Source of the DNA: a virus
Virus record (IMG/VR): IMGVR_UViG_3300029268_000129
Location: 1 to 24,697 of that record
Strand: one strand, 5' to 3'
Length of the DNA stretch: 24,697 bases
Shown here piece by piece: positions 1,417 to 22,474 of this stretch. Each line of letters opens with the position of its first letter. Positions within the stretch are counted from its first letter, which is position 1. The translations under genes and the position numbers were made by a program. Under the pieces are notes generated by a model, which worked only from the letters and a program-made list of their open reading frames with translations, searched no databases and was not told the origin of the DNA.

Positions 1417-1435
1417 TAAAAGTATTAGATAATTA
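1417..1435 (-). promoter_or_regulatory. 19-bp intergenic element, copy 1 (candidate phage promoter)
   Basis: The minus strand reads TAATTATCTAATACTTTTA, identical to the copies at 4778-4796 and 9541-9559. Its first three bases are the TAA stop of the 57-aa gene. It ends 28 bp before the ATG of the fibre gene at 1388. Confidence 0.6.
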
Positions 1436-1606
1436 TAATTTAATCCAAGAAGTAGATGTTTCAACTTTTTCAGTCCAAATAGTAGGAACTTCAATTTTTT
1501 GTGTCCAAGCAGTAGGTGTCTCAATTTTTTGGGTCCATACAGAAACTTTACCTCTATAAGTATAATGACTTCTATATTTAATATGACTTCTATAAGTTAT
1601 TGCCAT
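1433..1606 (-). CDS. 57-aa protein with Trp-led 10-residue tandem repeat
   Basis: ATG at 1606 lies two bases after the stop of the 949-aa adhesin gene, and the frame ends TAA at 1433. The N-terminal third has a Tyr-Arg repeat (YRSHIK, YRSHYT, YRGK). Residues 24-53 are three imperfect copies of a 10-residue unit, WTQKIETPTA, WTQKIEVPTI and WTEKVETSTS, followed by a fourth Trp. The DNA shows the same 30-bp period, but third-position differences between copies suggest they are maintained as protein. From memory, similar small Trp/Thr repeat proteins occur beside tail adhesin genes in metagenomic phages; no function is known to me. The gene is probably cotranscribed with the 949-aa protein and may be a small virion or fibre accessory protein. 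Confidence 0.7.
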   Translation of the reverse strand: MAITYRSHIKYRSHYTYRGKVSVWTQKIETPTAWTQKIEVPTIWTEKVETSTSWIKL

Positions 1607-1608
1607 AG

Positions 1609-4458
1609 TTAGACTTCAATCAATGATATTGGAACAGTAGCCCCTGAACTATCTTCTTGATTGATAACCCAAGAACCTTCATCAATACTATGAAATAAAA
1701 CAGTGTGAGAAGTTCCATCAATATCTACAAAAGTATGTAGTCCTGGATCTTCTATTAATGCTTCTAATTCAGCCCTCATTTCTTCACCAGTTCTAGTATC
1801 AACAGTTTCATCAGCTAATTTCATTGGAGATTTACATTTAATCCTTAAATTCCACATATATTTAACTACTGGGAATAAAGTATACCTCATAATTGTTTCT
1901 CTAATTACTGGGGTTATTATAGAATTAGTAGTTGATAAAACTATTTTAAATGAAATTTTATTTGATGATACTTGATTTGGAAATGGATATATAGTTGAAG
2001 TTGAATTAACTACTACTATTGGATTTGCCACTATTTCAACCCAAGCATCAGACTCTTTAAATCTATAATAAACTTGAATACTAGTTCCAGTTATTAAAGG
2101 GTCATGGTTAATAGTAAATTGATTCCAAAGTTTAGGAATACTTGGAAGGTTAGCATCATAATAAGAAGTTTGCATCCAACCAGTCGCCACATATTGGGAA
2201 GGATCTTGCTTATAAATATAACCATCATTTCCAGTTCCAATCATTAATATATTATTAACTTGTTCAATCGTAGTAATTCCTGTTACTGAACTTGGTAATG
2301 AGTTAAGCATTGACATACCATGTCTTTCAAAAACCCAAAGACCAATGTTAGTATCATTAGAATCAGTTTGTGGGTAAAGTCCTAAGAACAATTTATCATC
2401 AAAATACTTTTGACAAGAAACTTGTTGTAAATAATTATAATCATCTCTGTAAGAAAACAATGGATCTAAATATGAAGTGTTATAAGTATAAGTTTGACCA
2501 TGATAAGTTCCAAAGAAAAGAAAAGCATCATAGAATTCTGCACTCTTAATAACAGTATGGTCAAATGGATAAAGGCTTTGCCATAATGTTCCATTATAAA
2601 CAAAAGCAAATCCACCATAATTCTTAGTTGGAAGGAACTCAGGAGATCCGCCAGCTGCAATAAGTTGAGAATTGTATTCTTTTAAGACATAAACATAACC
2701 TGGTTTTTGAGGAAAATCTATATCTTTTGAAAGAGTATAGGTTGACAAATCAGCAGTTTCATAAACTCTGGCTTGTGGACCAACACCAACGTAAACTTTA
2801 CTACTAAATTCACAAATAGAAGTTACTTGAGATTCAGTTGGAGCAGTTCCAAAAGTTTTATTAACAGCCCAAGTAGTCCCATCAAAAGAAACTATTTTAG
2901 CTTCAGCATTAGTAACACTAGTAAGATTTCCAATTCCAAATAATGCTTTTTGAGTTCCTCCAACAGAAGTAATTATGGCACAATTGACAGAACCAGTAGC
3001 AGTATAAGCTAATGTCCAAGTAACATTACCATCCCAAGAATATATTTTTCCGGTATTAGTTCCAACATAAAGAGTAAATGATGAAGATGGTGGTTGAGTA
3101 GTAGCTTCGGTACCTGCTGAGGCTGTTAATAATCCAATATCAGCTCCTGAAAAAGAAGTTCTCGCTACATTATCATATCTAATATGTTGTAAATATAAAT
3201 CTAAATTATCTGCACCAATTTTTAAAAATGAAGTAGCATTACCTCTCATTCCACTAGTAGTAAATGTTGAAGTTGTTATTAAAACATTATTTCTATAATA
3301 TTTTACTGTTTGTGCTCCATCATAAACAATTGCATAGTTATACCAATTTGTAAAATCGGGAACAACAGCAACAGAGGTAGTTTGATTTTCATCTGCACCA
3401 CTAACCCATTTATTAAAATTTAATGTACCATTAGAATTTACTCTAATTCTAAATTGTGTTCCATCTGATGTTGGAGAATCAGATAAAAATAAATCATCTC
3501 CATTTGCTGAATTAAATTTAGCATTAAATTGTAAACTAAAAGAACCTACTGTTAATTCAGCAGTGGCAGCAGATTTCCATGCTTGGCTTGAATATAATCT
3601 CATTGCTCTACCAAATTGACCTGTATTTATCCAACTTGATGAACCAGCATATATTGTTTGATCATTAGTAGAATCACTGTCGACTAAAGTATTACCAGAA
3701 CCTTCATTACAATGCCATAAAGCTAAACAATAAGTATCATCAATTTTTGGATAGTAAGTTGCATTCCATTCAGCATCGGTGGTTGGTTGTTTACTGGTTG
3801 ATTCATCTGATTTTCCATAATAAACATAATAATTATTTTCAGTTGTTCCTGGGGAAATTGTATTTTGAGTTCCAAAAAAAGTTGTAGTCGTATCAATATA
3901 ATCTCTAGAAAGATCAACCCATGTACTTCCATTCCAATAAACAACTCTCCAATCTTTACGATCACTTCTAACCTTAGAGGCGGTTTGTAAAGCGGCAGTA
4001 TCTATATCAATTTTAATTGGATATCCAACAGGAATAGTTGTCGAAACAGGGGCAGTAATTGTTAATTGTTTTCTATAACCGTAATCTTCATTCCACCAGT
4101 TTTGAGAGGTTCTCCAAGCAATTTGACAGGTAATTTTAGCACCTGCTTCAACTTGACCTGCTGATACTAAAAGTTTAGAAAGTTTTAATTGTTCAAGTTG
4201 TGAGACATCAACATCAGATGATTTCCAAAACTTTCCACCATCTCCCCATTTCTCTTGCTTAGCACCATTTCTCCAATTGATTTGAGCCCAAAATTGCCAG
4301 AAATTAGCATCACGATAAGAAGAGTCACCAGATCCAAATTTATTAACAAAGGCTGGAGCCATTTTCTTTTGATAAGCATAAATAGCTTTCCCTCCACGAT
4401 CAAGAATATAACCTTTACTATCTAAACCTATGTGAAATTTTGAATTATATGCAGTCAT
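1609..4458 (-). CDS. 949-aa virion adhesin: DUF2341-like, LamG-like and beta-propeller modules
   Basis: Domains can be read from sequence patterns. Residues 1-120 are a Trp-rich N-terminal region (FWQFWAQINW, KWGDGGKFW). Residues about 120-225 match the DUF2341 pattern (WWNEDYGYRKQLTI, then YYVYYGKSDES). Residues about 241-440 look like a LamG/concanavalin-type lectin domain (CLALWHCNEGSG, WYNYAIVYDGAQTVKYYRNN). About 455-800 carry repeated short beta units with Trp/Tyr/Phe (LYVGTNTGKIYSWDG, KVYVGVGPQARVYE, NILMIGTGNDGYIYKQ), consistent with a beta-propeller. The last 100 residues are a small mixed domain. DUF2341 and LamG modules bind or display carbohydrate in other proteins, so a host-glycan-binding tail protein is likely. 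The ATG at 4458 lies one base beyond the upstream gene's stop. No Shine-Dalgarno sequence is evident. Confidence 0.75.
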   Translation of the reverse strand: MTAYNSKFHIGLDSKGYILDRGGKAIYAYQKKMAPAFVNKFGSGDSSYRDANFWQFWAQINWRNGAKQEKWGDGGKFWKSSDVDVSQLEQLKLSKLLVSAGQVEAGAKITCQIAWRTSQNWWNEDYGYRKQLTITAPVSTTIPVGYPIKIDIDTAALQTASKVRSDRKDWRVVYWNGSTWVDLSRDYIDTTTTFFGTQNTISPGTTENNYYVYYGKSDESTSKQPTTDAEWNATYYPKIDDTYCLALWHCNEGSGNTLVDSDSTNDQTIYAGSSSWINTGQFGRAMRLYSSQAWKSAATAELTVGSFSLQFNAKFNSANGDDLFLSDSPTSDGTQFRIRVNSNGTLNFNKWVSGADENQTTSVAVVPDFTNWYNYAIVYDGAQTVKYYRNNVLITTSTFTTSGMRGNATSFLKIGADNLDLYLQHIRYDNVARTSFSGADIGLLTASAGTEATTQPPSSSFTLYVGTNTGKIYSWDGNVTWTLAYTATGSVNCAIITSVGGTQKALFGIGNLTSVTNAEAKIVSFDGTTWAVNKTFGTAPTESQVTSICEFSSKVYVGVGPQARVYETADLSTYTLSKDIDFPQKPGYVYVLKEYNSQLIAAGGSPEFLPTKNYGGFAFVYNGTLWQSLYPFDHTVIKSAEFYDAFLFFGTYHGQTYTYNTSYLDPLFSYRDDYNYLQQVSCQKYFDDKLFLGLYPQTDSNDTNIGLWVFERHGMSMLNSLPSSVTGITTIEQVNNILMIGTGNDGYIYKQDPSQYVATGWMQTSYYDANLPSIPKLWNQFTINHDPLITGTSIQVYYRFKESDAWVEIVANPIVVVNSTSTIYPFPNQVSSNKISFKIVLSTTNSIITPVIRETIMRYTLFPVVKYMWNLRIKCKSPMKLADETVDTRTGEEMRAELEALIEDPGLHTFVDIDGTSHTVLFHSIDEGSWVINQEDSSGATVPISLIEV

Positions 4459-4459
4459 A

Positions 4460-4750: not shown

Positions 4751-4777
4751 ACTCAGAGTATCGGGAAAAAACTAAGG

Positions 4778-4796
4778 TAAAAGTATTAGATAATTA
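4778..4796 (-). promoter_or_regulatory. 19-bp intergenic element, copy 2 (candidate phage promoter)
   Basis: Exact copy of TAATTATCTAATACTTTTA on the minus strand. Its first three bases are the TAA stop codon of the Ser/Thr/Pro-rich gene (4794-4796), and it ends 27 bp before the ATG at 4750. Confidence 0.6.
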
Positions 4797-5534: not shown

Positions 5535-5543
5535 ATTTTTAGT

Positions 5544-5876
5544 TTATTCCTCATCTTCTAAATTAGTATCAGATAACTTTTTAACGAAGTGTCTAGGAAT
5601 TTTAATTTCTCTACCTTCATAGAGAGTATCATTAGGTGTAAATTTAGCATTGAAGTCTTGGAGTTCAGTACCATCACAATCATATTTTTCAGCAATATCC
5701 CACCAATCTTCACCTTTTTTAACTTCGTGAGTTAAGTAGTCTCTCTTTGAAGAGGCTGAAGAATTAATCATTTGATCATTAATAGTTCCTTTCTTTGTTT
5801 CAACTGCCACATTACCAAATCTCTTCATTGAAGAAGGCTTAAAATCTTGCATATCTATGGTTAATGAGAATTTCAT
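5544..5876 (-). CDS. 110-aa LysM-domain protein
   Basis: Residues about 48-94 form one LysM module: LTHEVKKGEDWWDIAEKYD, a middle helix with LQDFNAKF, then YEGREIKIP, which is the usual two-helix, two-strand pattern of a peptidoglycan-binding LysM. The first 45 residues are a polar leader without a signal peptide, and the C-terminus is acidic (NLEDEE). LysM modules bind N-acetylglucosamine-containing polymers; in tail clusters they also appear in small connector-like proteins of myoviruses and siphoviruses, without catalytic activity. With no catalytic domain, this is likely a structural or cell-wall-binding virion protein. It follows a divergent copy of the 19-bp element by 26 bp, and its own 3' end carries another copy serving the next gene. 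Confidence 0.8.
   Translation of the reverse strand: MKFSLTIDMQDFKPSSMKRFGNVAVETKKGTINDQMINSSASSKRDYLTHEVKKGEDWWDIAEKYDCDGTELQDFNAKFTPNDTLYEGREIKIPRHFVKKLSDTNLEDEE
5561..5579 (-). promoter_or_regulatory. 19-bp element, copy 3, embedded in LysM coding sequence
   Basis: The minus strand reads AAGTTATCTGATACTAATT; the core TTATCTGATAC matches the consensus with A to G at one base. It lies within the codons for residues near 100-106 of the LysM protein (KLSDTN) yet keeps a 26-bp gap to the next ATG at 5534, the same as the intergenic copies. Confidence 0.45.
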
Positions 5877-5902
5877 AATTAGTTTTAACTCTTGATTAGA
5901 TT

Positions 5903-5921
5903 AAATTGTATTAGATAATTA
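5903..5921 (-). promoter_or_regulatory. 19-bp element, copy 4 (candidate phage promoter)
   Basis: The minus strand reads TAATTATCTAATACAATTT. The first 14 bases match the consensus exactly and the tail differs. It ends 26 bp before the LysM gene's ATG at 5876. Confidence 0.55.
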
Positions 5922-5943
5922 TTTCTTTTTACCACCTTCACAT

Positions 5944-6933: not shown

Positions 6934-7067
6934 AGTTCTTTTAGCTTTACTTCCGTTTCAGCTATCAAAATGTTAAGCGTATTAATTATTTCTAAATTAT
7001 TAACTAATTTAGCTTCAACCAATTTTTTATTACATTCTTCTATGATTTCTTGTAGTTGTTTTTCCAT
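6924..7067 (-). CDS. 47-aa coiled-coil peptide
   Basis: ATG at 7067 shares one base with the TAA stop of the kelch-like gene (TAATG junction), and the frame ends TAG at 6924, overlapping the next gene's ATG by ten bases. The product starts MEKQLQEIIEECNKKLVEAK and ends TEVKLKELCK. It is rich in Glu, Lys, Leu and Ile with heptad-like hydrophobic spacing, so it is probably a single amphipathic helix or coiled coil. Both junctions are typical of translational coupling, and without this frame the 133 bp here would be the longest non-coding stretch of the tail block. The function is unknown; a small oligomerising virion peptide is plausible. Confidence 0.65.
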   Translation of the reverse strand: MEKQLQEIIEECNKKLVEAKLVNNLEIINTLNILIAETEVKLKELCK

Positions 7068-8479
7068 TAGTAGAGCATAATTCTGCGAACAACAGAACTA
7101 GTATTTAATACATAATATAACCAAGCAACACTACCAGTAGCGTCTAGTAATTTAATCCAAAGTTTATCTCCAATTACGGCGGTAGATTGAGTGTAAGTAT
7201 CAGAGAAGAAACCTTGAACATAATTACCAGGGATATTAAATTGGAATAATTTTCCAGTGGCGTTTTGCATTAAGTAAAGATTATCTTTGTAAACTGTCAT
7301 TGAAGAACCAGTTGTAAAAGTATCCGTTATTCCAGTAGTAACAGTTTCCCATGTATTTCCAGGAATGTTATATCTAGTTAAAGTTGAAGTTGCAGCACCT
7401 CTTGGAGAATAAATCCACTTTCCATCTTGAATAGTATTTTCTGTTCCCCAACAAGTATTTCCTGTCACTCCTACCCAATTTGCTAACATTGCAGTTGTTG
7501 GAGTACCAACACGAGCTGCTACTGGTGAAACAGTTGCCCAAGTATTAGTAGAAATTGTGTAAGTATACATTGTAACTGCACCATTACCCATCAAATATAT
7601 TCTGTCTTCATTACCCTCAATAGAATACTGCGAAGTGTTATCTATAGTTGCTCCCGTAGCGAAAGTTAAACTTGTCGCATCGCTGTCAGTAATAACCCTA
7701 ACTTGACCTTTTCCTGTACCCGCTGTAATTCGGACTTGATAACCAATCCATTGATCTACCGTCCATGCCTTAGCACTATTTACTAACGTAGTAGCACTAC
7801 CACTTGTAGCTGTCCCTGTGGCAAAAATATCAAAACGTGTATAAGGTAAAACCATTTGGCCTGATGTTGCCCAAGCTGCTGGAAGTCCAGAAGTAGCTAA
7901 ACCAGCTTGCCAAGTCATAGTACAAATATCAAAAACTTTCCAAACATTAGCAGCCAAAGCAGTATAAGCATTTAAAACAAAAAATCTACCAGTATTTAAT
8001 TTAAAGGTATCATTATTAGCAACACTAGTAACAGTTGTGTCTAGTGTTAACGTAGCGGTTGTGCCAGAAATACAAAAACCAGTAACATTACATCTAGTAC
8101 CGATGTTAGCAGCTGTCCCTGATAAAAATTCAATTACTGAACCAACACAAATTCCCGTCATTGGGAATGCTGCCATATTAACTGTGACCGTAGTAGTAGA
8201 ACCACCATTAGCAGTGTAATTTATTGACCAAGGATGAGCTACACCCGTTGCTCCAACAGCGAATGTTCCTGCCAAAGCACCTGATGGAATTAAAGTATAA
8301 CCATCGTCATCATGGTTATATAAATACATTGCTGTTGCCGAAGTTACCCATAAGGCATAAGTTTTAGCTCCTGAAATTGGAGCAATCATAAAAAGTCCTG
8401 CTGCCGAAGCAACTGGAACTGGACATAGTGTTTGAGCTTCTTTTTTGTGTAGTAAAACTACGTTATTTTGTGCTGTCAT
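7067..8479 (-). CDS. 470-aa kelch-like beta-propeller tail protein
   Basis: The product has no signal peptide. The N-terminal third is Thr/Ala/Gly-rich beta sequence. Around residues 215-290 there is a module with ATSGSATTLVNSAKAW, GYQVRITAGTGKGQVRVI and SQYSIEG, which recurs in phage tail proteins. The C-terminal half has kelch-type repeat units: YTYTISTNTWATVSP, LTRYNIPGNTWETV and LFQFNIPGN, each a 'name of quantity, then NTW' strand pair typical of propeller blades. Kelch-type propeller proteins after the adaptor gene are usual in podovirus-like metagenomic phages and may form the tail nozzle or hub. The exact role is inferred from position. The start lies one base beyond the upstream stop, without a clear Shine-Dalgarno sequence. 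Confidence 0.7.
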   Translation of the reverse strand: MTAQNNVVLLHKKEAQTLCPVPVASAAGLFMIAPISGAKTYALWVTSATAMYLYNHDDDGYTLIPSGALAGTFAVGATGVAHPWSINYTANGGSTTTVTVNMAAFPMTGICVGSVIEFLSGTAANIGTRCNVTGFCISGTTATLTLDTTVTSVANNDTFKLNTGRFFVLNAYTALAANVWKVFDICTMTWQAGLATSGLPAAWATSGQMVLPYTRFDIFATGTATSGSATTLVNSAKAWTVDQWIGYQVRITAGTGKGQVRVITDSDATSLTFATGATIDNTSQYSIEGNEDRIYLMGNGAVTMYTYTISTNTWATVSPVAARVGTPTTAMLANWVGVTGNTCWGTENTIQDGKWIYSPRGAATSTLTRYNIPGNTWETVTTGITDTFTTGSSMTVYKDNLYLMQNATGKLFQFNIPGNYVQGFFSDTYTQSTAVIGDKLWIKLLDATGSVAWLYYVLNTSSVVRRIMLY

Positions 8480-8480
8480 T

Positions 8481-8888
8481 TTAAATTAAAGAGATATTCT
8501 CTTGATTTGCTAATATATAAGTCATATTTGCGATATTAGGGACTATTTGTATGGCTGGATTGCCTCCTAAGTTTGTTATACCGGTAACGGTAGTAACCGT
8601 AGTAACTACCCCAGATAATAAAGTAACTCTTAAATCAGCAGCAGTTCCAATTACTGACCTAATAGCTGAAATAGCGTTATTGAGTTGAGTTAGAGTTTCT
8701 TCAGTAGAAAAATCTACATTAGTATTAGTTTGATCAACTATCTGTGTCTTTTGTGAACCATCAATTTGATTAGAGGAAGTGGCTAATGAACTTTTGTCAA
8801 TTAAAATTTCTCCACTAGAATTGACTCTAGCTTTTTTTTCATAATTTGTTCCTTGTTCAAGAAAACAAGGGTTTAATTCACCACTCAT
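8481..8888 (-). CDS. 135-aa tail-associated protein
   Basis: The N-terminal 30 residues include a Gly/Asn-rich beginning (MSGELNPCFLEQG) and RVNSSGEILID. A helical segment (STEETLTQLNNAISAIRSVIG) is followed by LRVTLLSGVVTTVTTVTGITNLGG, a Val/Thr-repeat pattern that I recall from many small phage tail and fibre proteins, and a hydrophobic C-terminus. There is no transmembrane segment with flanking charges. It sits between the adaptor and the kelch-like protein with gaps of only a few bases, so all three are likely to be made from one mRNA. It may be a tail-tip or fibre-attachment subunit. No firmer family assignment is possible by eye. Confidence 0.55.
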   Translation of the reverse strand: MSGELNPCFLEQGTNYEKKARVNSSGEILIDKSSLATSSNQIDGSQKTQIVDQTNTNVDFSTEETLTQLNNAISAIRSVIGTAADLRVTLLSGVVTTVTTVTGITNLGGNPAIQIVPNIANMTYILANQENISLI

Positions 8889-8890
8889 AA

Positions 8891-9514
8891 TTATCCAATT
8901 AAATCAATAAATCGTGGTTTAGGAACAAACCTAACCGCTGAAAGAATTTCTTTATATTCTGTTTTTATATCCCTAATCCAAGATTGAACTTGCTGCATGG
9001 AGATACCATCAGGTTTAGCATTATAATCCCAATTTTTAAGATCAACAAAATATCCCATTAATTTTGAATAAGCTCTTAATACAGTACCTAAAACTAAAAC
9101 TTCAATTTTAGCATCTGGGATATCTAAGGCTTGACCTTCTGTAAGATCAGCAATTGGAGTAAATGATTTTTTAATTGAAAGTCTTAATGGATAAACTGCA
9201 ATAGTTCTTTGAGGTAAATAAAGATTTCCAGCAAAAGTATCCCAACCTTTAATTTCATTGTAATCATCTTCATTAGTTGAGTTTAAATCATTTATTTCTA
9301 CTTTTTCAACTTTAATAGTTCCAGTAGGTAATGGATATGTTCTTTTATCAACAACAGTATTTGATTCCCAAACCTCTTCTTTATAAACATTCTTAGCAGG
9401 AAGAGTTCTTAATTCTTCATCAGCAAAATCATCTAACTGAGTATCTGTCCAAAGATCAGCAGTAGATTCATCTAATTTTTCTCTAATAAGAGTTCTAAAA
9501 GCACTTTTAATCAT
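8891..9514 (-). CDS. Head-tail adaptor (phage SU10-type adaptor family)
   Basis: The 207-residue product begins MIKSAFRTLIREKLDES, then LWTDTQLDDFADEELRTLP, the N-terminal pattern (Arg-rich helix, W-[ST]-D-x-[EQ]-[IL]-x-x-[FW]-x-[DN]-E) that I associate with the SU10-type phage adaptor family. The middle is a beta region (YPLPTGTIKVEKVEIND), and the C-terminal half is helical with a motif around IPDAKIEVLVLGTVLRAYSKL. In podoviruses this protein forms the ring joining portal to nozzle. It starts the tail block after a perfect copy of the 19-bp element 26 bp upstream and has no Shine-Dalgarno sequence. The family assignment is from memory of its N-terminal motif and its position. Confidence 0.75.
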   Translation of the reverse strand: MIKSAFRTLIREKLDESTADLWTDTQLDDFADEELRTLPAKNVYKEEVWESNTVVDKRTYPLPTGTIKVEKVEINDLNSTNEDDYNEIKGWDTFAGNLYLPQRTIAVYPLRLSIKKSFTPIADLTEGQALDIPDAKIEVLVLGTVLRAYSKLMGYFVDLKNWDYNAKPDGISMQQVQSWIRDIKTEYKEILSAVRFVPKPRFIDLIG

Positions 9515-9540
9515 ATCTTGATTTTATTTAAGATAGACTT

Positions 9541-9559
9541 TAAAAGTATTAGATAATTA
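9541..9559 (-). promoter_or_regulatory. 19-bp element, copy 5 (candidate phage promoter)
   Basis: Exact copy of TAATTATCTAATACTTTTA. Its first three bases form the TAA stop of the methyltransferase gene (9557-9559), and it ends 26 bp before the adaptor ATG at 9514, separating the glycan cassette from the tail block. Confidence 0.65.
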
Positions 9560-10198
9560 AATTGGTTGTGGATAAGGCTTCCTAGTGGCTATTATCGTGA
9601 TGTTTTTACCATCATTATGGGGTTGAACTTCAACTGCAAAGAAACCTACATATCTTAAAAGATATTCAATAGTTTGTGAAGAATAAGCATTAATATATCT
9701 AGGATCAACTTTCCATTTTCTAACTTCTGATTCATTATCAGGATTTGGAATTTGTAGAATTAAAATTCCACCTCTTTTAAGTTGTAATCTAGCTAATCTA
9801 AAAAATTCATATATGTAACCAATATACATATATTGTAGGTTATGGATGCAAGTAATGGCTTTATAGGTTGTTCTAACATAACTTAATCTTTCTATAGCTG
9901 ACATCCACATAGTTGATAATCTTTTTTTACTACAAATTTCAAGATGAAGTCTTATTTCATCAATACCATAACTTTTTTTCTTAGGAAGAATAGTTTTAAA
10001 AATTTCCAACATTTCCCCTCTACCACAACCTATATCTAAAAATACTCCATACCTAACTTCTTTTTTTACTCGTTCTAAATCAGGAATATAGCGTTCAATA
10101 TTTCTTTTAAAAGTTTCTTCACTACCAATTATTGAATTTCTTATTTCAAAAAGAATTTGATCTGGGAGAGTATTAATGACATTAAAGTTCTCTATCAT
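9557..10198 (-). CDS. Class I SAM-dependent methyltransferase
   Basis: From ATG at 10198 (213 aa), motif I FLDIGCGRGEM lies at residues 53-63, followed by an acidic post-I residue (GID, Asp80), and a late strand GGILILQIPNP. This is the Rossmann-type fold of small-molecule methyltransferases. The open frame extends upstream to an ATG at 10243, but that would place 62 bases inside the zinc-protein gene, so the internal Met is preferred; no Shine-Dalgarno sequence distinguishes them. Its place at the end of three glycosyltransferase genes suggests O-methylation of a sugar or of a glycan precursor rather than DNA methylation; no DNA-methylase DPPY-type motif is visible. The substrate is unknown. 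Confidence 0.8.
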   Translation of the reverse strand: MIENFNVINTLPDQILFEIRNSIIGSEETFKRNIERYIPDLERVKKEVRYGVFLDIGCGRGEMLEIFKTILPKKKSYGIDEIRLHLEICSKKRLSTMWMSAIERLSYVRTTYKAITCIHNLQYMYIGYIYEFFRLARLQLKRGGILILQIPNPDNESEVRKWKVDPRYINAYSSQTIEYLLRYVGFFAVEVQPHNDGKNITIIATRKPYPQPI

Positions 10199-10373
10199 CT
10201 GGGTAAAAGAATATTTTCTTTTTAACTCGTAAACCAGTACCATGGCATAAATGACAGGGAATATTTTTTACTTCTTGATCTGGACCATTAGTAATATAAA
10301 AGGCTGATTTACCATTGCCACCACAAAAATCACACTTAATAAAATTCTCCACTATTTTTCTTACTCTTTTCAT
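10182..10373 (-). CDS. 63-aa DnaJ-type CxxCxGxG zinc protein
   Basis: Two CxxCxGxG motifs are visible: CDFCGGNG from Cys14 and CHLCHGTG from Cys40, separated by 22 residues including a short hydrophobic strand. Together these four cysteines can bind one zinc in the manner of DnaJ zinc-finger modules, which usually recognise polypeptides or RNA. There is no J domain. The start ATG overlaps the stop of the preceding glycosyltransferase (ATGA), so expression is coupled to the glycan cassette. Similar isolated zinc modules are known from phages and plasmids as small proteins without an assigned role. A role in glycosyltransferase stability or in folding of a target protein would be guesswork. Confidence 0.75.
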   Translation of the reverse strand: MKRVRKIVENFIKCDFCGGNGKSAFYITNGPDQEVKNIPCHLCHGTGLRVKKKIFFYPDDREL

Positions 10374-13056: not shown

Positions 13057-13061
13057 AATTA

Positions 13062-13089
13062 AATTTACAACAATCAAAAATATTGTCAA
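13062..13089 (-). promoter_or_regulatory. TTGACA-type promoter of the accessory (glycan) operon
   Basis: On the minus strand a perfect TTGACA (13084-13089) is followed after 16 bp by TAAATT (13062-13067, four of six matches to TATAAT, preceded by TG). It lies just after the GC-rich terminator. The ATG at 13056 begins five bases after the -10 hexamer, so transcription would start at or next to the ATG, giving a leaderless mRNA. Confidence 0.5.
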
Positions 13090-13098
13090 GTCCAATAA

Positions 13099-13124
13099 AA
13101 AAGCCCCCATTTCTGGGGGCTTTT
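13099..13124 (-). terminator. Intrinsic terminator after the major capsid gene
   Basis: A perfect 11-bp inverted repeat (AAAAGCCCCCA with TGGGGGCTTTT) encloses a four-base loop, and T residues follow on the minus strand (TTTTTTATT). It lies 15 bases after the capsid stop at 13140 and could also act on plus-strand transcripts because the repeat is symmetrical. It is the strongest hairpin I see in the window and marks the end of the packaging/head operon. Confidence 0.9.
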
Positions 13125-13139
13125 ATCTAATTTAATCTA

Positions 13140-14093: not shown

Positions 14094-14110
14094 ATTTTTT
14101 AAATTTTAAA

Positions 14111-14851
14111 TTATAATAAACCCATTTTTTCTGCCATCGCTAAAGCCTTATCAAATGTTTTCTGATCAACCTCTCGGTCGCTCAGTCTTGCAAATGCGGT
14201 ATTAATACCAGCTTTAGTTTTAAAGAGTTCCAATAGTTGATTTACTTTTGGATCTCCACTAGCAGATACACCACCATTGTTTCCAACAATAGCGAATTCT
14301 TTAGGTTTTTGAGGAGCCTTTGGAGCTTCTCCTTGGGAGATATTTGATATGTAGTCTTCAATGTCGAGGAGAGCATCATCAACATATACAGTGCCTGGTT
14401 TTACAAATCCTCGGGGATTTGCTCTAATTGCCTTGACTAACTCTGGAGAAATGTTTGGATAATCCGCTAGGACATCCTCCAAACCTTCCTTCATTTCAGT
14501 CTCTGCTGCTTTAAGAAGTAATTCTTGACTCATAGGGTTTTGAGCCCATTTAGCCAACGCATCAGGATCGTCAGGTATATTTGAACCACTATCACTACCA
14601 GCTACATTTCTAAGTTTTTCATAGCGAGCCAACCTTTTTGAAATGGTTGACTGACCAGATCTCAGCCTCTCGTTCTCTTGTTCTAACTTCTCCCAATGTG
14701 ATTTGGGTTTTCCCAAGACAACTTCTTCTTCAGGGGCTGCCTCAGATGGTGTGCTTGCATCCTCAGATTGAGAAGGATCTACTTCAACAGGAGCTTCCTG
14801 TGGAATTTGACCTTCTGAACCTGGAATGACAACTTTGTCATCTTCGTTCAT
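14111..14851 (-). CDS. Capsid scaffolding protein (inferred)
   Basis: The 246-residue product starts with an acidic, Pro/Ser/Glu-rich 50 residues and then a coiled coil (HWEKLEQENERLRSGQSTISKRLARYEKL). The middle includes an acidic helical segment (ALAKWAQNPMSQELLLKAAE), and the C-terminal 30 residues form a charged helix ending EKMGLL. The composition, helical coil and position directly upstream of the capsid gene fit a scaffold; no protease domain is seen. A divergent copy of the 19-bp element lies 65 bp before the start, and no Shine-Dalgarno sequence is visible. No enzyme motif is present. It might instead be a head decoration or assembly chaperone, but scaffold is much the likelier choice. 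Confidence 0.7.
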   Translation of the reverse strand: MNEDDKVVIPGSEGQIPQEAPVEVDPSQSEDASTPSEAAPEEEVVLGKPKSHWEKLEQENERLRSGQSTISKRLARYEKLRNVAGSDSGSNIPDDPDALAKWAQNPMSQELLLKAAETEMKEGLEDVLADYPNISPELVKAIRANPRGFVKPGTVYVDDALLDIEDYISNISQGEAPKAPQKPKEFAIVGNNGGVSASGDPKVNQLLELFKTKAGINTAFARLSDREVDQKTFDKALAMAEKMGLL

Positions 14852-14916
14852 ACTTGTTTGTTAAATTGTTAAAGTATCTATTACTAGACACCTCAATAAT
14901 GAATGTTTTCTATAAC

Positions 14917-14935
14917 AATAAGTATCAGATAATTT
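14917..14935 (-). promoter_or_regulatory. 19-bp element, copy 6 (divergent)
   Basis: The minus strand reads AAATTATCTGATACTTATT, sharing the TTATCTGATAC core with copy 3. It follows the 799-aa gene's stop by eight bases and lies 65 bp before the scaffold ATG, so spacing differs from the others. Confidence 0.4.
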
Positions 14936-14943
14936 AAGATAAA

Positions 14944-17343
14944 TTATTCACCAGAAGTTAATGCTTTTAACTGAGTTTGAAAATTTCTTTGAATTTCTCT
15001 TATCCTTTTATTTCTTTCTCTTTCATCTTCTATCTTTGAAGCCTTTTTCATAAGTGAACTCATTCCAGATTGTAAATCTCTAATTTCATATTGTTTAGAA
15101 GTACTAAATTTACCAATATCAAAGTCGTAGACATTTAATCCTAGGTTACCAAGAATACTTTGACTTGTAGTTTTCTTTGAAGATGGTAATAATGTTTTTG
15201 AAACAACAGAAGGAAGTAATGTTTGAGCTACAGATTTTGCCTTAGCTTTTGTGACATCAGATTTTATAAATGAATCTGAAACTTTAGAATCGTAATAAGG
15301 GTCATAATTATTAACAACTTTACTATATAAATCAGCTGCAGGGATATTCATTCCAAAAGGTAATTTAGACTCACCTAAGAAACCACCAAATGGATAAAGA
15401 TAATCAAGTGACGCATATTTACCTTTTGTTCCAGGTACTCTAACAGCATTCTTTAAATAAGAAGGTAACATTTTTCTTTCACCCTCTCTTTCAGGAGTCA
15501 TATTATTAATAGCTGTTTGAGCCTTATTAAAAACAGAAATTCTATTTGGGTTTTTAATAGCAGTTTCAGCAGTAAGAGGAATTGCTTTACGAGTAAAAGT
15601 ATAGAAAGGAACAATTCTTTTTAATACATTCTTTTCAAATGGAGTTAAATCTCCATAATTAAAGAGAGCTTTTTCAGCAAGGTCTTTAGCTTCTTCAGCT
15701 GTTTTACCTTTACCTCTTTGATAGATAAATTGTTGAAGTTTAGAAATTTCTTCCTCTTTATTTTGGATACCACCACCAACATCAATTGCTTTATTCCAAG
15801 CACCTTTAATCTTTTCAAGAGATTTCTTTAAAACTCCATCAGTTGATTGACTTGGTAATAATTTATTAATTTCATTTATATTAAAACCACCAGCAAAAGT
15901 TCCAGCTTTTTTAGCTTCTTGGTAAAGAAGACCTTTTGTTTTGTATTCTTTTTTAGCCACACTTCTTTTTAATAAAGGACCAACACCACCAGTCATATAA
16001 TTTAAAATTGGATTAGATGTTTTATTTCTAATAAGTTGAGATGGTGAAAGAACTGTTTTACCAGCTTTCCAAATAGATTGAACCTTATCAAAATTCTTAA
16101 AGAAATTATCAACTCCAGTTCCGAAATCACCTGGTCTAATTCCACCAGCACCCATTATATCTTGGGCAATATAATTTGGAATATATTTACCAGCTAATTT
16201 ACCATAAGATGCAGAACTAGGAATTTGTTTGAAACCTTCTTCTGCTGTGTCCTTAGCCCAATTTTTATTTACTTGTTCAAAGAATTTACCCACTTCTACA
16301 TTTTTACCTTCTTCTGCTAGACCTCTACCAGCACGATAACCAGGTTGTTGTACAAATTTTTCCCAATCAGTAGAAACTGTTCTCTTTTTAAATCTATCAA
16401 CACTTAATTTATTGCTTCCAATTTTACCAATTTGTTCTGTTTTTTCTTTTAAATATGAAGGTAAATAACCACCTTTATATTTTTCAAAAACTTCTTTTCC
16501 TGCTTGTTTTGTTCTAACTAATTCTTGACCAGCTTTTTGAAAACCTTCTTTAATAGGATTAGTTAAACTTGCTAATGCTTCATTCATTGTTATTCCACCA
16601 GGACCACCAGTACCAGCACCTTCAAGTAATTGAGTAATTCTTTTTTGAATAACATCAGGAATTTCTTGACCCTTTTTAATTACATATTTTCCATAAGTAA
16701 AATCAATAGGGGATTTAGTTATGTTTTTTCCAAGTTCAGTAGCATTTTCTACGACATTACTAACACCTTGTTTATATTTTTCAAATGCTTTTAAGTAATC
16801 AGTATTTCCAGCAACTCTAAATTTATTAGAAACTAACCCTCCAACATTTTGGAGAACAGGCATCTTCTTAACTAAATTTTCAACTTTTAAAACATCATCA
16901 ATTTTATTAATTCCTTTTGCTAAACCTGGTATTTTCTTAAGTCCAGCTTTAATAGCACTTCCACCAATATAAGTAGTAGGATCCAATAAGATATCGCCAG
17001 CAAAACCACCAATTGCTTTTACATACTTATTGGTTACACCTAAATCACCGAGAACATCTGAATAAGATTGACGATTACTAACACCTTCTTTCATCCCTTT
17101 AAAGATATTTCCACCTTTAACTAATGAACGAGCTAAACCAGCCGAAGCATATTGAGGAGTTGATAATATATCAAAAAATTTCTGTAATCCAGAACCACTC
17201 ATATATTTACCACGATTAGTGTCACCACTAACAGTAGGTGTTTGAACTGGAGATGGAGTAGAAACTTTTGGAATAGTTGTTTGAGTTGGAACAGTTGTTT
17301 GTCCAGATCTCATTGCTCTAAGTTCTTCTAATGTATGAGCCAT
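14944..17343 (-). CDS. 799-aa probable internal virion / DNA-ejection protein
   Basis: No signal peptide is present. The first 45 residues are Thr/Pro-rich, followed by a repeated Gly/Ala helix region (LQKFFDILSTPQYASAGLARSL) and GFAGDILLDPTTYIGGSA near residue 110. Around residues 561-590 lies YGDLTPFEKNVLKRIVPFYTFTRKAIPL. From memory, variants of this segment recur in very large proteins of metagenomic podovirus-like phages, where they are regarded as internal or ejection proteins. The C-terminal 60 residues form a basic charged coil (MSSLMKKASKIEDERERNKRIREIQR). It follows the 811-aa gene with overlapping ends, one base shared. No catalytic motif is seen. Its size, helical content and position between portal and capsid genes support an ejected core protein. 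Confidence 0.6.
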   Translation of the reverse strand: MAHTLEELRAMRSGQTTVPTQTTIPKVSTPSPVQTPTVSGDTNRGKYMSGSGLQKFFDILSTPQYASAGLARSLVKGGNIFKGMKEGVSNRQSYSDVLGDLGVTNKYVKAIGGFAGDILLDPTTYIGGSAIKAGLKKIPGLAKGINKIDDVLKVENLVKKMPVLQNVGGLVSNKFRVAGNTDYLKAFEKYKQGVSNVVENATELGKNITKSPIDFTYGKYVIKKGQEIPDVIQKRITQLLEGAGTGGPGGITMNEALASLTNPIKEGFQKAGQELVRTKQAGKEVFEKYKGGYLPSYLKEKTEQIGKIGSNKLSVDRFKKRTVSTDWEKFVQQPGYRAGRGLAEEGKNVEVGKFFEQVNKNWAKDTAEEGFKQIPSSASYGKLAGKYIPNYIAQDIMGAGGIRPGDFGTGVDNFFKNFDKVQSIWKAGKTVLSPSQLIRNKTSNPILNYMTGGVGPLLKRSVAKKEYKTKGLLYQEAKKAGTFAGGFNINEINKLLPSQSTDGVLKKSLEKIKGAWNKAIDVGGGIQNKEEEISKLQQFIYQRGKGKTAEEAKDLAEKALFNYGDLTPFEKNVLKRIVPFYTFTRKAIPLTAETAIKNPNRISVFNKAQTAINNMTPEREGERKMLPSYLKNAVRVPGTKGKYASLDYLYPFGGFLGESKLPFGMNIPAADLYSKVVNNYDPYYDSKVSDSFIKSDVTKAKAKSVAQTLLPSVVSKTLLPSSKKTTSQSILGNLGLNVYDFDIGKFSTSKQYEIRDLQSGMSSLMKKASKIEDERERNKRIREIQRNFQTQLKALTSGE

Positions 17344-19778
17344 TATCTTTTAAATAAACCAGTAATTTTGTCCCAAAGAGAAGATTTCTTTTGTTGAATA
17401 ACTGGAGGAGCATAATTTTGACCCAAGTTAATTTTTGTTCCACTTGGGTTTGGAATTGAAACCGGAGTTGCCAATTTAAGAGTTTGAGCTGTTTTATTTG
17501 CAGTATCTTGTTGAGTTTTAATAACTGAAGGATTAGTTGTTGGAGTAATCGTCTGAGGAATACTAGTGATAGCTTTATTTATTGAAGCACCAGCAGTTAT
17601 ATTTTGTTGTGGAGTTAAATTAAGTGGAGTTTGTTGACTAGCAAAAGTTGGTTTAACAATAGTTGGAGTTATAACCTCGGTTGAATCTAATGGCATATTA
17701 CCATTAATAGATACATTACCAGGAACAGGATTTGTTCCAGTTTTAGAAATTGTTTCAGGAAGTATATTTAATTTTGTAGCTCCAACAGGAGTTTTATTTT
17801 CCCCAACTAAACCTAGTTGTCTAGGTTCATTAGCTTTCTTTTCAATTAAAGTTTGTTGTTCTGATATTTTTTGATCTTCAACTTGTTTATTAATATTTTC
17901 AGTTTGCTTAGACAAACTTAATAAAGAAACTATCCCATTAACACCAGCAGATTTATACTCTTCATTAATATCTTGTTCACCATTTAATTGAACTGATTTA
18001 ATAGTGTTATCATTATTTATCCAATATCTCAAAAATTGTCCAGTAGTTGGATCTTTTATATCAACATACTTATCATTTATTTTTTGATAACCACCACTAG
18101 TGGTATCAAATTTATAATTTTTTTGTTCTTCTGGTTTTAAATTAGAATAATTTACACCATCAATAAATTCATTACTCTTAATTTCATTAATTTTATGGTT
18201 GATTCCATTTTCATCAGCGATATAATTTTCATTCATCCCTGGTAGTTTTCTAATAACTAAAGGAGTTGCTTGACTACCAACCGCAGAAAATCCCCCAGTA
18301 GTTAAAGCATCTGTCATAACAACTGTTAGATTACCTGGATTTTGAGAAACTTCATTATAAATATCATTAATACCAACTTTAGCATAATCTGGAGCATCAA
18401 CACCAAGTGCGGAAGTCCAATCATCATTTAATTCTTTATTTATAGATTCAATAACATTTGAAATTTTTTGATTTGAACCATTATAATAAACTTTTGAATT
18501 TTGATTTTTACCACTTAAAATTCCTAATCTATAATCAAGATCATCTTTTCTATCAGCTAATACAGTAGACAAATCTGATAAATAATCAGTAGAGCTAATT
18601 GATCCAGAGGATAATTCATTATTTAATTGAGTAATTGAATCTTTAAAAGTTTTATCTTCTATATCTGGAGATTGATGTTGTGTAGTGTCCTGCTGAGTTG
18701 GTGGACCACCAGCATTAGGTAAAATAACTCCATTATTTTGAGTTGTTCCACCACCAGTACTAATACCTCCACTACCACCGCTTGATGATCCACCACCACC
18801 ACCAGTACCCTCAACTAAGTTTCCATAAATATCATAAGTAGCAGAACCAGTTCCTACTCCTGGTCCTTTAATTCTATCTCCACCTCTATCCCAGGCTTTA
18901 CCATATTGAACATCTTCCCTAACATCATTACCCCAAGTATTTAAATCTTTTAATAAATCAGTATGCCCACTACTTACAGCGGTAGATTGAAATTGATCTA
19001 ATATACCAGAAAATTCCTGTGGTGATATTTCATTATTTACATAAGAATTTATAGCTAAATTAATTTTGTCAATTAAATTAGCTTTTTCTTGTTTTGTATT
19101 TGCAGTTTGGAGAGTTTCTTTAGCTTTGTCTGTTTCTATTTTATATTCACCAGCTTTGGTCAAATAATCATTTGCTTCATCAGTTAATCCAGCAACATTA
19201 GCTTTATTTGACATCTCTCTATAAAGATTTTCATATCCAGCATATTGAGAAGTAGTATCTCCTAAATTTGAAATTCTAGCTGCTTCACTTTTAAAGTAAG
19301 TGTTTAAATCTTCTTTTGATGCAGCTTTTTTCAATTGTTCAACATCAGTTGAGAGTGAATCATATAAAGCAGAACCTTGGTTTACCCCAGTTAATCTATT
19401 TTGTTTATAAGCTAAATATTGTTTCGCAGTAATAGCCCCTGAGTTATATTTATCAGCATAATCATTATCAGTTTTTTTGTTGTTCATCTGTCCAACAGTT
19501 TGCATTAAAAGTTTTTTATCTTCATTACTTAACCAAGCTCTATTAGATGTCTTAGTTAAATACTGAATCATCTCATCAATTCCAATTTCACCATTTTCAT
19601 ACTTATTTTGCATTATCTGATCTTCTTTATCAGCATTATTTTTTTGTAATGACATTGTATATCCACCTAAGGTTCCACCATATCCTGATAATACACGACC
19701 TCTTCTATTATAAACACGAGTCATTCCGCCTGTTTCTGCTGCTTGATTTTTGAGTCTTTCTGATACTGCTGTTGCCAT
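17343..19778 (-). CDS. 811-aa probable internal virion protein with disordered C-terminus
   Basis: The N-terminal 300 residues are helical and polar with many Lys, Glu, Asn and Gln residues. A glycine-rich linker at about 325-345 (GGGGSSSGGSGGISTGGG) separates them from a mixed region, and the last 150 residues are Thr/Pro/Gln-rich, ending in an amphipathic SSLWDKITGLFKR. That ending resembles the N-terminus of the neighbouring transglycosylase (MGFFDKIISKFTKK). There is no membrane span and no catalytic motif. A usable Shine-Dalgarno GAGG lies about ten bases before the ATG at 19778. Location directly between the transglycosylase and the 799-aa protein suggests that the three are made together as an ejection/internal set. 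Confidence 0.55.
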   Translation of the reverse strand: MATAVSERLKNQAAETGGMTRVYNRRGRVLSGYGGTLGGYTMSLQKNNADKEDQIMQNKYENGEIGIDEMIQYLTKTSNRAWLSNEDKKLLMQTVGQMNNKKTDNDYADKYNSGAITAKQYLAYKQNRLTGVNQGSALYDSLSTDVEQLKKAASKEDLNTYFKSEAARISNLGDTTSQYAGYENLYREMSNKANVAGLTDEANDYLTKAGEYKIETDKAKETLQTANTKQEKANLIDKINLAINSYVNNEISPQEFSGILDQFQSTAVSSGHTDLLKDLNTWGNDVREDVQYGKAWDRGGDRIKGPGVGTGSATYDIYGNLVEGTGGGGGSSSGGSGGISTGGGTTQNNGVILPNAGGPPTQQDTTQHQSPDIEDKTFKDSITQLNNELSSGSISSTDYLSDLSTVLADRKDDLDYRLGILSGKNQNSKVYYNGSNQKISNVIESINKELNDDWTSALGVDAPDYAKVGINDIYNEVSQNPGNLTVVMTDALTTGGFSAVGSQATPLVIRKLPGMNENYIADENGINHKINEIKSNEFIDGVNYSNLKPEEQKNYKFDTTSGGYQKINDKYVDIKDPTTGQFLRYWINNDNTIKSVQLNGEQDINEEYKSAGVNGIVSLLSLSKQTENINKQVEDQKISEQQTLIEKKANEPRQLGLVGENKTPVGATKLNILPETISKTGTNPVPGNVSINGNMPLDSTEVITPTIVKPTFASQQTPLNLTPQQNITAGASINKAITSIPQTITPTTNPSVIKTQQDTANKTAQTLKLATPVSIPNPSGTKINLGQNYAPPVIQQKKSSLWDKITGLFKR

Positions 19779-19782
19779 ATTA

Positions 19783-20583
19783 TTATGACCTCACAAAATC
19801 TGTGCAGTCTATTAAATTTTTAACATTTTTACCTCTATCTGCTTCTCCAGAATTATATTGTTGAAGAATTGCATCCCAATCAGGTTCTAAACCTTTATTT
19901 GTATACACTTTTGCTTCTTTAGAAAACTTCTTAGCCATCCACTCAGCTGATTTCCACATATCTTTGGCATCATCAGGTGTTATATATAAATCACCTGGTT
20001 TACGACCTAATTCAAGAGCCTTAGGCCCAAACCATCTCATATTAATTTGACCAGGGCCATATGATTCTTCACCAGTATTTTTCTCAGCATTCCACCAAAC
20101 ATTATCTACATATTTACCTTCATTCCAACCTGGATTATTTCGGTGTTCCCATCTTGAATTAGCCAAAATAATTTCCTTAGGAACTCCCATAGCAGCACCA
20201 TATTTTTCAGCAGCATCATAAAAATCACTAGGAACCATTTCTTGTTTTTTAGTTTCTCCAATACCTAATACCTTAGGAGTAAGTGTTTTACCTATACTAA
20301 CATTTTTCATTTCACTTGGCATTAAACTTGGAGTTGCCATTTGTGTTTTTCTTAAATCATTTGGAAATTCTGGAGTTGTATACCCATATAATTCATTTGA
20401 TCTTTTTTTTTGTCCCTCATTATTTAAATTTGAATAAACACCATTTGAAACTTTAGTTAAACCATCTACATCTGTTTGCCCTATTTTTAAAACTTTATCT
20501 CTCTGATTAAAATCCATAGATTTTAAATTAGGAGTAGATGATTTTTTTGTAAATTTACTAATTATTTTGTCAAAAAATCCCAT
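19783..20583 (-). CDS. Virion-associated lytic transglycosylase (SLT/GH23-like)
   Basis: The 266-residue product carries the lysozyme-like order of motifs: a catalytic-Glu candidate at 146 in RWEHRNN (in place of the usual ES motif), GPGQIN at 177-182 region (the family's GxxQ-type signature), and QYNSG at 242-246 (as the AYNxG signature). These lie in the C-terminal half; residues 1-110 are a polar, mostly disordered leader starting with amphipathic MGFFDKIISKFTKK. No signal peptide and no holin neighbour argues for a virion enzyme that opens the cell wall locally during infection rather than for lysis from within. It follows portal, with an AGGGGG-type ribosome-binding site in the portal's last codons. 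Confidence 0.75.
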   Translation of the reverse strand: MGFFDKIISKFTKKSSTPNLKSMDFNQRDKVLKIGQTDVDGLTKVSNGVYSNLNNEGQKKRSNELYGYTTPEFPNDLRKTQMATPSLMPSEMKNVSIGKTLTPKVLGIGETKKQEMVPSDFYDAAEKYGAAMGVPKEIILANSRWEHRNNPGWNEGKYVDNVWWNAEKNTGEESYGPGQINMRWFGPKALELGRKPGDLYITPDDAKDMWKSAEWMAKKFSKEAKVYTNKGLEPDWDAILQQYNSGEADRGKNVKNLIDCTDFVRS

Positions 20584-20584
20584 A

Positions 20585-22402
20585 TTATGCCCCCTGTGCT
20601 CCTAAATTTTGAGCTGCTTTATTAATTAAACCTTGACCTGAAGTATATGAAGTTGTTCCACCAGAAACTGACATTGGTTTTTTATTACCTTGATTTTCAC
20701 TTGATACCAATGTTGGACTTGGAGTATTAATTTGTGGAGCACCAAGAGTTGTAGTTGGAGCCTGTGTAGCCGCCATAGCTTCCTGTTGAGCTTGAACACC
20801 ACCCTTCATAAAGTTGTACATTTTTGCACGATATTCAACTAATACAGGGTCTTCAGCTTCTTGTTTCATTATTTCCATAATAGCCTTAGGATCCTTATAA
20901 CCAAGTTCATCAAATGTAGTTTCAAATGGAAGTCCCATTTGGAATTTATTCATTATGTTTACAATTTTGTCTGAGGCTGAAATTGGCATTACGTCTTCCC
21001 AGCTAAATTCAATCATTCTAGTTTCAAATTCTTCAGTATCAGCATTATTCCAGAAATCAACACCTGAAAAATATTTATGACCAAGTATTTGAATTCTTTC
21101 TATAATTCCATCTAATACTAATTCCCAAGCATCTCTTAAATCAGTAGTCACATCCAAAATAGTTTGATAATCAATTGCAGATTTTCTACCAGAATCAGAA
21201 CCACTACTTCCAAAACCAACTTCAGGAACTAACATATCGTGGATAAACGATTTAGTTGTCTGAACATAAGTATCCACTGGATAAGTATTTACTGTTTGAG
21301 TTAAGGTTGAAAAATCAGATTCAGGTCCATCAATAAAAATAACCTGTCCGCTTCCTGGCTTAATGCTTTCAGGATCAAAATCACTCATATTTTTAGCAAC
21401 ATATTTAGCATTTGAAGCGGTTCTAATATAATCACGAGCATCATTTCTAACTTCATTAAGTTCAATATTTGGACTCATTAAATCATCAATATATGATTTA
21501 CTCCAAGGTTTACCTGGCATATGGAGAGAATGACCAATCACCCAAGGGTTAAAACCCCATTCGTGTTTGATATATTGACAGAGAGTATCTCCAATAACTA
21601 TTGCGTAAATTTCGTCAGTACAATATTCAGTAACAGTTGCCATTGGTTGAGTTGAATAATCCTTAGTACCTATTGGGCTATTAACTGATGATTTATTATC
21701 AACACTCCATTCATCACCATGTTGACCACTTTTACTACCCCCCTTATTATCAATCTCTGGTTTAACCTTAATTCCCCATTCATTATTAATGAAATCAATA
21801 CTCATCATTGATGTATGAGCTACCCAATCATATTGTAAAGCATCATCACTTCTCCATCCAACTAAAAGATTCTCAACCTTTTCAGCTTGAGTAACTTTAA
21901 TTTCTTTTGTAGATGAATCGTAGTAAACCTTAACACCAAAATCTCCAATAACTACCTGATTCATAACTGCTCGTTTGTACCCTTGTTTCCACCATTTATT
22001 TCTCCAAAAAACTCTATCAACAAAATCTTCAACACTTTGAGCTCTTAATCCTTCAATTTGATTTGTTCTACTTAATGGTAATGTTTTAATATTAGGTGGA
22101 TTATTTCCAACTGAATGATAGATTTTAACTGCACTTCGACCAACATAATTAACCACTTGATCAGCATGACCTTGTTTAGATTTTTGAGTTAATCCAATAA
22201 TGTTAGTGTAACCTTCTTGATGACCTGCTACAAAATCTCTTCTCTTATCATACATTCTTTTTCTTTCATCTTTGTCAGGATTGGCACCACTAATATCTGC
22301 CAAAATTTCTTTTTCAATCTTTTCTCTAATCTTATCATCATCTTTTAATTCAATTTTGAGATTTGAGTTAGTTAGATCTACTTTGTCATCATTTTGTATC
22401 AT
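20585..22402 (-). CDS. Portal protein
   Basis: The usable start is ATG at 22402 (605 aa); the open frame can be extended to a TTG at 22417, which lacks a ribosome-binding site. The N-terminal stretch has RKRMYDKRRDFVAGHQ and a helix with DQVVNYVGRSAVKIYHS, then NNPPNIKTLP, characteristic of podovirus-like portals. The core includes WVIGHSLHMPGKPWSKSYID and a long helix with NEVRNDARDYIRTASNAKY. The C-terminal region has VGFGSSGSDSGRKSA and then a Gln/Ala/Thr-rich tail, typical of portal crowns. Portal directly after large terminase is the usual order. A copy of the 19-bp element and a short palindrome lie upstream. Confidence 0.85.
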   Translation of the reverse strand: MIQNDDKVDLTNSNLKIELKDDDKIREKIEKEILADISGANPDKDERKRMYDKRRDFVAGHQEGYTNIIGLTQKSKQGHADQVVNYVGRSAVKIYHSVGNNPPNIKTLPLSRTNQIEGLRAQSVEDFVDRVFWRNKWWKQGYKRAVMNQVVIGDFGVKVYYDSSTKEIKVTQAEKVENLLVGWRSDDALQYDWVAHTSMMSIDFINNEWGIKVKPEIDNKGGSKSGQHGDEWSVDNKSSVNSPIGTKDYSTQPMATVTEYCTDEIYAIVIGDTLCQYIKHEWGFNPWVIGHSLHMPGKPWSKSYIDDLMSPNIELNEVRNDARDYIRTASNAKYVAKNMSDFDPESIKPGSGQVIFIDGPESDFSTLTQTVNTYPVDTYVQTTKSFIHDMLVPEVGFGSSGSDSGRKSAIDYQTILDVTTDLRDAWELVLDGIIERIQILGHKYFSGVDFWNNADTEEFETRMIEFSWEDVMPISASDKIVNIMNKFQMGLPFETTFDELGYKDPKAIMEIMKQEAEDPVLVEYRAKMYNFMKGGVQAQQEAMAATQAPTTTLGAPQINTPSPTLVSSENQGNKKPMSVSGGTTSYTSGQGLINKAAQNLGAQGA

Positions 22403-22422
22403 ATCAAAATATATCAACAGCT

Positions 22423-22437
22423 AATAATACTATTATT
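22423..22437 (-). repeat. 15-bp palindrome upstream of portal
   Basis: AATAATA and TATTATT are perfect inverted arms around one base. It lies between the 19-bp element (copy 7) and the portal start and might be an operator or chance AT-rich symmetry. Confidence 0.3.
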
Positions 22438-22455
22438 ATGAAACCAACCCCAATT

Positions 22456-22474
22456 CAAAAGTATTAGATAATTC
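22456..22474 (-). promoter_or_regulatory. 19-bp element, copy 7 (candidate phage promoter)
   Basis: The minus strand reads GAATTATCTAATACTTTTG, 17 internal bases identical to the consensus. It is one base from the terminase TAA (22476-22478) and lies 53 bp before ATG at 22402. Confidence 0.55.

Follow-up and report, generated by a model that had tools for sequence, protein, structure and literature searches.

In phage T4, the late promoters served by gp55 carry a box (TATAAATA) that is the -10 element itself, and the repeat of the late promoters of phage P1 is centred near -22. In the middle promoters of T4, which depend on MotA and AsiA, the -35 gives way to a phage box, with the sigma70 -10 retained (PMC2988021); the centre of this MotA box, (a/t)(a/t)(a/t)TGCTTtA, is at -30, and 12 +/- 1 bp separate the box from the -10 (PMC2988021). 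The 11 late promoters of P1 share a 9-bp inverted repeat and are served by the activator Lpa (PMC10695390). Few model systems are known in which a phage activator replaces the -35.

Here we describe a series of putative promoters in an uncultured phage, in which a short box, TTATCTRATAC, stands before late genes. Like the MotA/AsiA promoters, they keep a sigma70-type -10 and have what appears to be a phage box for the -35, with a spacing that varies by 1 nt either way; unlike them, they have the core 19-21 nt from the -10 and its centre near -38, they serve late genes, and most of their transcripts are predicted to be leaderless. With the Lpa promoters of P1 they share the use of a short common box at many late promoters and a phage activator, here a proposed one, but a good inverted repeat is present in 2 of the 7 copies rather than in all promoters, and the box lies near -38. 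Like the late promoters of T4, they combine a late-specific box before structural genes with the lack of a -35, but they have a separate -10 downstream of the box. No relative of MotA/AsiA or of Lpa was recognised in the visible part of the incomplete phage genome. As judged from these features, the box promoters belong to neither the MotA nor the Lpa type, since both the sequence and the spacing differ and the inverted repeat is good in so few copies.

The box and its seven copies

The window, by which we mean the whole stretch of 24,697 nt analysed (IMG/VR record IMGVR_UViG_3300029268_000129), is a late region with nearly all genes on the minus strand, among them terminase, portal-like, major capsid and tail-type genes. 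A sibling contig, IMGVR_UViG_3300029286_001866, is near-identical to window positions 8762-24697 and adds 12.1 kb, which encode a primase/helicase, a single-strand binding protein, an exonuclease, a helicase, a DNA methyltransferase and a helix-turn-helix protein. Together, the two contigs give 36.8 kb of visible sequence from an incomplete genome.

The original prediction had pointed to a 19-bp element at seven gene boundaries, and a mismatch-tolerant match together with a search for the core confirmed all of its sites, as well as the gaps to the following ATG (28, 27, 26, 26, 26, 53 and 65 bp). Specifically, with copies named by the first position of their 19-mer, the element is exact in copies 1417, 4778 and 9541, has two mismatches at 22456-22474 and three in copy 5903, and all of these lie on the minus strand; at up to three mismatches, five were found in the window against 0.11 expected. 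The core TTATCTRATAC occurs exactly seven times in the window, copies 5561 and 14917 included, always on the minus strand and always preceding a late-gene start (Table 1). An unsupervised k-mer search upstream of starts recovered the same motif from seven upstream regions, with seven occurrences in total. Further, a weight matrix applied to the 36.8 kb scored the seven copies at 20.9-25.9 and the next best matches at 16.1 and 14.4, both on the opposite strand and within genes. The first of these, AAATTATCTATTTCTTTTT at window 24569-24582 (+), is antisense inside the gene before terminase and probably reflects chance.

The 19-mer of each of the three exact copies opens with the TAA stop codon of the upstream gene, and copy 5561-5579 sits within the coding end of the upstream ORF 5544-5876. 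The leaders are mostly unrelated, with 3-15 identities per 26 positions, and this, along with the copy kept in the coding end of another gene, makes the boxes look selected rather than recently copied. Two forms of the box occur: the G form (2 copies), TATC-T-GATA, is a 9-bp inverted repeat with 8 of 9 symmetric positions, and the A form (5 copies) has 6 of 9.

A -10 hexamer downstream of the box

All seven boxes are followed, 19-21 nt past the last base of the core, by a sigma70-like -10 hexamer (Table 1). When a fixed E. coli -10 matrix was slid downstream of each 19-mer, the summed best scores peaked 15-17 nt past the 19-mer, at 22.8, versus 11.8 for the next independent offset, which takes in the ATG itself. 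The peak was significant over all offsets under mononucleotide shuffling (P 0.0016; 20,000 shuffles) and dinucleotide shuffling (P 0.001; 1,000 shuffles), and its score was not equalled in any of 20,000 sets of windows drawn at random from the minus strand; the test was prompted by inspection, and its null spans all offsets. Two of the seven hexamers (TAAAAC and CATTAT) are weak. The long-gap copies, 22456 and 14917, keep the hexamer at a spacing of 20 nt, and hence the signal is not due to the nearness of a start codon.

Table 1. Boxes, -10 hexamers and comparison elements in the window, with predicted start points
Feature	Position	Strand	Remarks
Late box TTATCTAATAC	1422..1432 (19-mer 1417-1435)	-	exact match; 21 nt to -10
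-10 CATAAT	1395..1400	-	ends 6 nt before ATG 1388; predicted start point 1388
Late box TTATCTAATAC	4783..4793 (19-mer 4778-4796)	-	spacer 20 nt
-10 GATACT	4757..4762	-	ends 6 nt before ATG 4750; predicted start point 4750
Late box TTATCTGATAC	5566..5576	-	inside coding end of ORF 5544-5876; spacer 19 nt
-10 TAAACT	5541..5546	-	ends 6 nt before ATG 5534; predicted start point 5534
Late box TTATCTAATAC	5908..5918 (19-mer 5903-5921)	-	spacer 20 nt
-10 TAAAAC, weak	5882..5887	-	ends 5 nt before ATG 5876; predicted start 5875-5876
Late box TTATCTAATAC	9546..9556 (19-mer 9541-9559)	-	spacer 19 nt
-10 TAAAAT	9521..9526	-	ends 6 nt before ATG 9514; predicted start point 9514
Late box TTATCTGATAC	14922..14932	-	before gene preceding major capsid gene; spacer 20 nt
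-10 CATTAT, weak	14896..14901	-	predicted start 14889; leader ~38 nt to ATG 14851
Late box TTATCTAATAC	22461..22471	-	before portal-like gene; spacer 20 nt
-10 CATAAT	22435..22440	-	predicted start 22428; leader ~26 nt to ATG 22402
Sigma70-type promoter TTGACA-15-AATAAT	24626..24652	-	7 nt before ATG 24618; gene before terminase; comparison
Sigma70-type promoter TTGACA-16-TAAATT	13062..13089	-	5 nt before ATG 13056, at head of glycosyltransferase cassette; comparison
Terminator-like hairpin, GC-rich stem then T run	13099..13124	-	after major capsid gene; 11 pairs, picked up by scan on + strand

At the right distance from the seven -10s, no TTGACA-like -35 was found, the best candidate scoring 0.0 bits, compared with 7.3 bits in the TTGACA promoters of the phage, which suggests that the box, centred near -38, occupies the -35 region and stands in for it. 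The 19-bp block had been taken for a promoter; on the present evidence it would be part of one, namely the upstream half, with the sigma70-type -10 lying 19-21 nt past its core. In the mechanism that we favour, and consider moderately likely, host RNA polymerase with its main sigma factor would read the ordinary, imperfect -10 hexamer, and TTATCTRATAC with a short A/T tail would replace the TTGACA -35. An early-made phage factor, either an activator or a protein that remodels sigma, would attach to the box and bring in or redirect the polymerase, thereby switching on late genes at the seven internal boundaries. At five of them transcription would run from the start codon, giving leaderless mRNA, and at the other two the leaders would be ~26 and ~38 nt long.

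An unlikely alternative holds that the box is itself a -10-like core for a phage late sigma factor or a single-subunit RNA polymerase, of the T4 late or T7 type, with transcription starting a few bases downstream and a leader of about 20 nt. The length of the conserved block, its restriction to late genes and the lack of a -35 upstream of the box would all agree with such a core, but the -10 signal 19-21 nt downstream and the fixed 6 nt to the ATG would be left unexplained, and leaders of ~20 nt would be without Shine-Dalgarno sites. Nor was a gene for such a polymerase or sigma factor found, in an incomplete genome and with a polymerase search that had no positive control. A scan for a -35 farther upstream, with the box as the -10, gave no signal (P 0.11), and the box itself is probably not a -10. 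It is quite improbable that the box instead serves as a -35 for a phage sigma factor or an alternative host one, used with the sigma70-like -10. This would draw on the same -10, and the spacer does vary by only 1 nt either way, as for boxes read by sigma factors; however, a near-invariant 11-bp box at 19-21 nt is longer and farther away than the usual -35, and profiles detected no phage sigma factor in the visible sequence.

Start codon geometry and predicted leaderless transcripts

The regular distance between the element and the ATG had been part of the original prediction; the distance from the -10 to the ATG appears to explain it better. In the five copies with gaps of 26-28 bp, the hexamer ends 6, 6, 6, 6 and 5 nt before the ATG, and the differences between gaps (28, 27, 26 and 26) are absorbed by the spacer (21, 20, 19 and 19), so that the distance from -10 to ATG is held constant. 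Given the usual 6 nt from hexamer to start point, a hexamer that ends 6 nt before the ATG predicts the A of the ATG as +1, and the mRNAs of these five copies should hence be leaderless. A -10 score of at least 2.4 at exactly 6 nt occurs at 4 of the 7 boxed starts versus 1 of 37 others (Fisher P 0.001, in a test not independent of that on the -10 offset), and the sole unboxed start of this kind has a perfect TTGACA at a spacing of 17. In the TTGACA promoters that the phage has at gene starts, the -10 lies 5, 6, 7, 7 and 10 nt from the ATG.

In leaderless bacterial genes, TANNNT lies some 12 bp ahead of the start (PMC3160421), and those of Deinococcus have the -10 6-7 bp upstream of the ORF (PMC12340547). 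The feature of a -10 next to the ORF is seen in five of our copies and is lacking at 22456 and 14917. Thus, the phage resembles the leaderless genes of Deinococcus-Thermus and Actinobacteria in having a TANNNT-like hexamer 6-7 nt before the start codon (PMC12340547, PMC3160421), but it is a low-GC phage, and its seven cases are coupled to a phage-specific upstream box. Most late genes have no Shine-Dalgarno site, and several early genes have AAGGAG; leaderless mRNAs would fit the absence of such sites at the boxed genes.

The near-constant distance to the ATG in five copies and the late genes without Shine-Dalgarno sites would also be expected of an RNA signal, placed ahead of the start codon in the mRNA and acting in processing or translation, which the original prediction had named as its alternative. 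That reading fits worse and seems very unlikely to us: two copies are 53 and 65 nt away with the spacing from box to hexamer unchanged, the leaders have no common sequence, and no copy is present at other late genes that lack Shine-Dalgarno sites, the major capsid gene among them.

In the early region of the sibling contig, at 1959-2060 (+), a near-consensus TTGACA-17-TATTAT promoter has its -10 7 nt before the ATG of a 19-codon ORF, which overlaps the start of the next gene by ATGA; that gene has AAGGAG. The short ORF is a possible leaderless leader peptide.

Early and late promoter classes

The core has 0 copies in the 12.1-kb early and replication region of the sibling contig, which, for the part of the genome that is known, confines the element to the late region. 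The search of the remaining genome that the original prediction had proposed thus turned up no scattered copies, and the seven known ones all stand before starts. The early promoters are sigma70-like (TTGACA-17-TATTAT), and the phage has two promoter classes with the same -10 geometry, for which the simplest account would be the host sigma70 holoenzyme in both. The TTGACA class serves early genes, the gene before terminase and the glycosyltransferase cassette, and the box class serves the seven late boundaries. Neither stands before the majority of the other late genes, the major capsid gene among them; these must be read through from upstream.

Promoters of Bacteroidota have the form TTG ... 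TAnnTTTG, with TAnnTTTG as the -7 element. A promoter of this kind was considered and rejected: the early promoters resemble those of sigma70, AAGGAG is found at several early genes, and a TAnnTTTG-like sequence, TACTTTTG, is present in the 22456 copy only, the other copies being different.

Other features of the two contigs bear on their organisation. Window 9557-13124 comprises the hairpin after the major capsid gene, a TTGACA promoter, glycosyltransferase and methyltransferase genes and, as its end, late box 9541, and has the appearance of an accessory cassette that was inserted and carries a host-type promoter of its own. Within the early region, 18-bp repeats form long arrays at sibling contig positions 11147-11713 and 12697-13054. 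The protein encoded by the first (11068-11919) is made up of GI-x-AG-x hexapeptide repeats; the contig stops within the second, a possible reason for the break in the assembly at this point. A candidate regulatory switch lies at sibling contig 7461-7553, where divergent TTGACA promoters separate the primase gene from a small helix-turn-helix (HTH_17) gene.

Candidate readers of the promoter

A phage-specific promoter read by a phage-encoded or phage-modified polymerase or sigma factor had been predicted, and the two halves of this proposal fared differently. The seven boxes, all of them late, give good support for a phage-specific promoter class restricted to late genes, but the visible 36.8 kb of the incomplete genome yielded neither an RNA polymerase nor a sigma factor of the phage. 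Specifically, a T7-type RNA polymerase had no match in either contig, in a search in which control genomes gave no match either, and the Sigma70_r2 profile had none while its controls worked, with part of the genome missing and gp55-like factors being divergent. Among the early proteins scanned, many of which are orphans, no MotA/AsiA-like transcription factor was recognisable in the incomplete genome. Two orphan early proteins were structure-predicted as candidate activators. For one, of 92 aa (sibling contig 3690-3968, minus strand), the model is beta-beta-alpha-beta-beta-alpha-alpha at medium confidence (pLDDT 64), and it has no significant fold match in the PDB or in a viral library.

A bound factor could also silence rather than activate, and short asymmetric sites at gene boundaries, all oriented with transcription, recall the repressor or stoperator sites of mycobacteriophage L5. 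Such silencing of the late genes is extremely unlikely here: lacking a -35, the promoters to be repressed would be weak unaided, the early region is without a copy, and neither an integrase nor a repressor was recognised in the visible sequence.

Relatives and host

Within IMG/VR, the exact 19-mer occurs in 7 stretches, and more than two cores are present only in the contig of this phage; the repeated element is private to it there. A 16-mer of the motif matched at least 120 stretches, with at most two cores in each and 106 not before a start, and was dismissed as chance. Used as queries, the capsid, terminase, 799-aa protein, portal and helicase brought up no close relative other than the sibling contig, and distant capsid relatives (Pagevirus, MW202801, gut contigs and a Bacteroides phage; 23-28% identity) have no comparable repeated element; neither these nor the 19-mer matches in IMG/VR yielded a divergent relative carrying the box. 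A search by the helicase found no host, and the relatives of the methyltransferase are scattered over phyla and uninformative on this point. For the core sequence, no phage paper was among the literature matches listed.

Implications for phage late transcription

Our results amount to a prediction, made at the level of sequence, of the late switch of an uncultured phage, with start points given to the base, and suggest a phage-specific late switch that makes leader-free messages. In the activator-dependent arrangement that we favour, promoter and translation start would be combined in a minimal intergenic unit of 42-44 bp. A limited literature search found no series of start-codon-aligned phage late promoters giving leaderless mRNAs. 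A further-reaching idea, which we hold to be doubtful, is that the late programme of this lineage consists of activator-dependent promoters starting exactly at the start codon, with a set of late proteins made from leaderless mRNA. If this were true, the phage could shift translation towards leaderless initiation late in infection.
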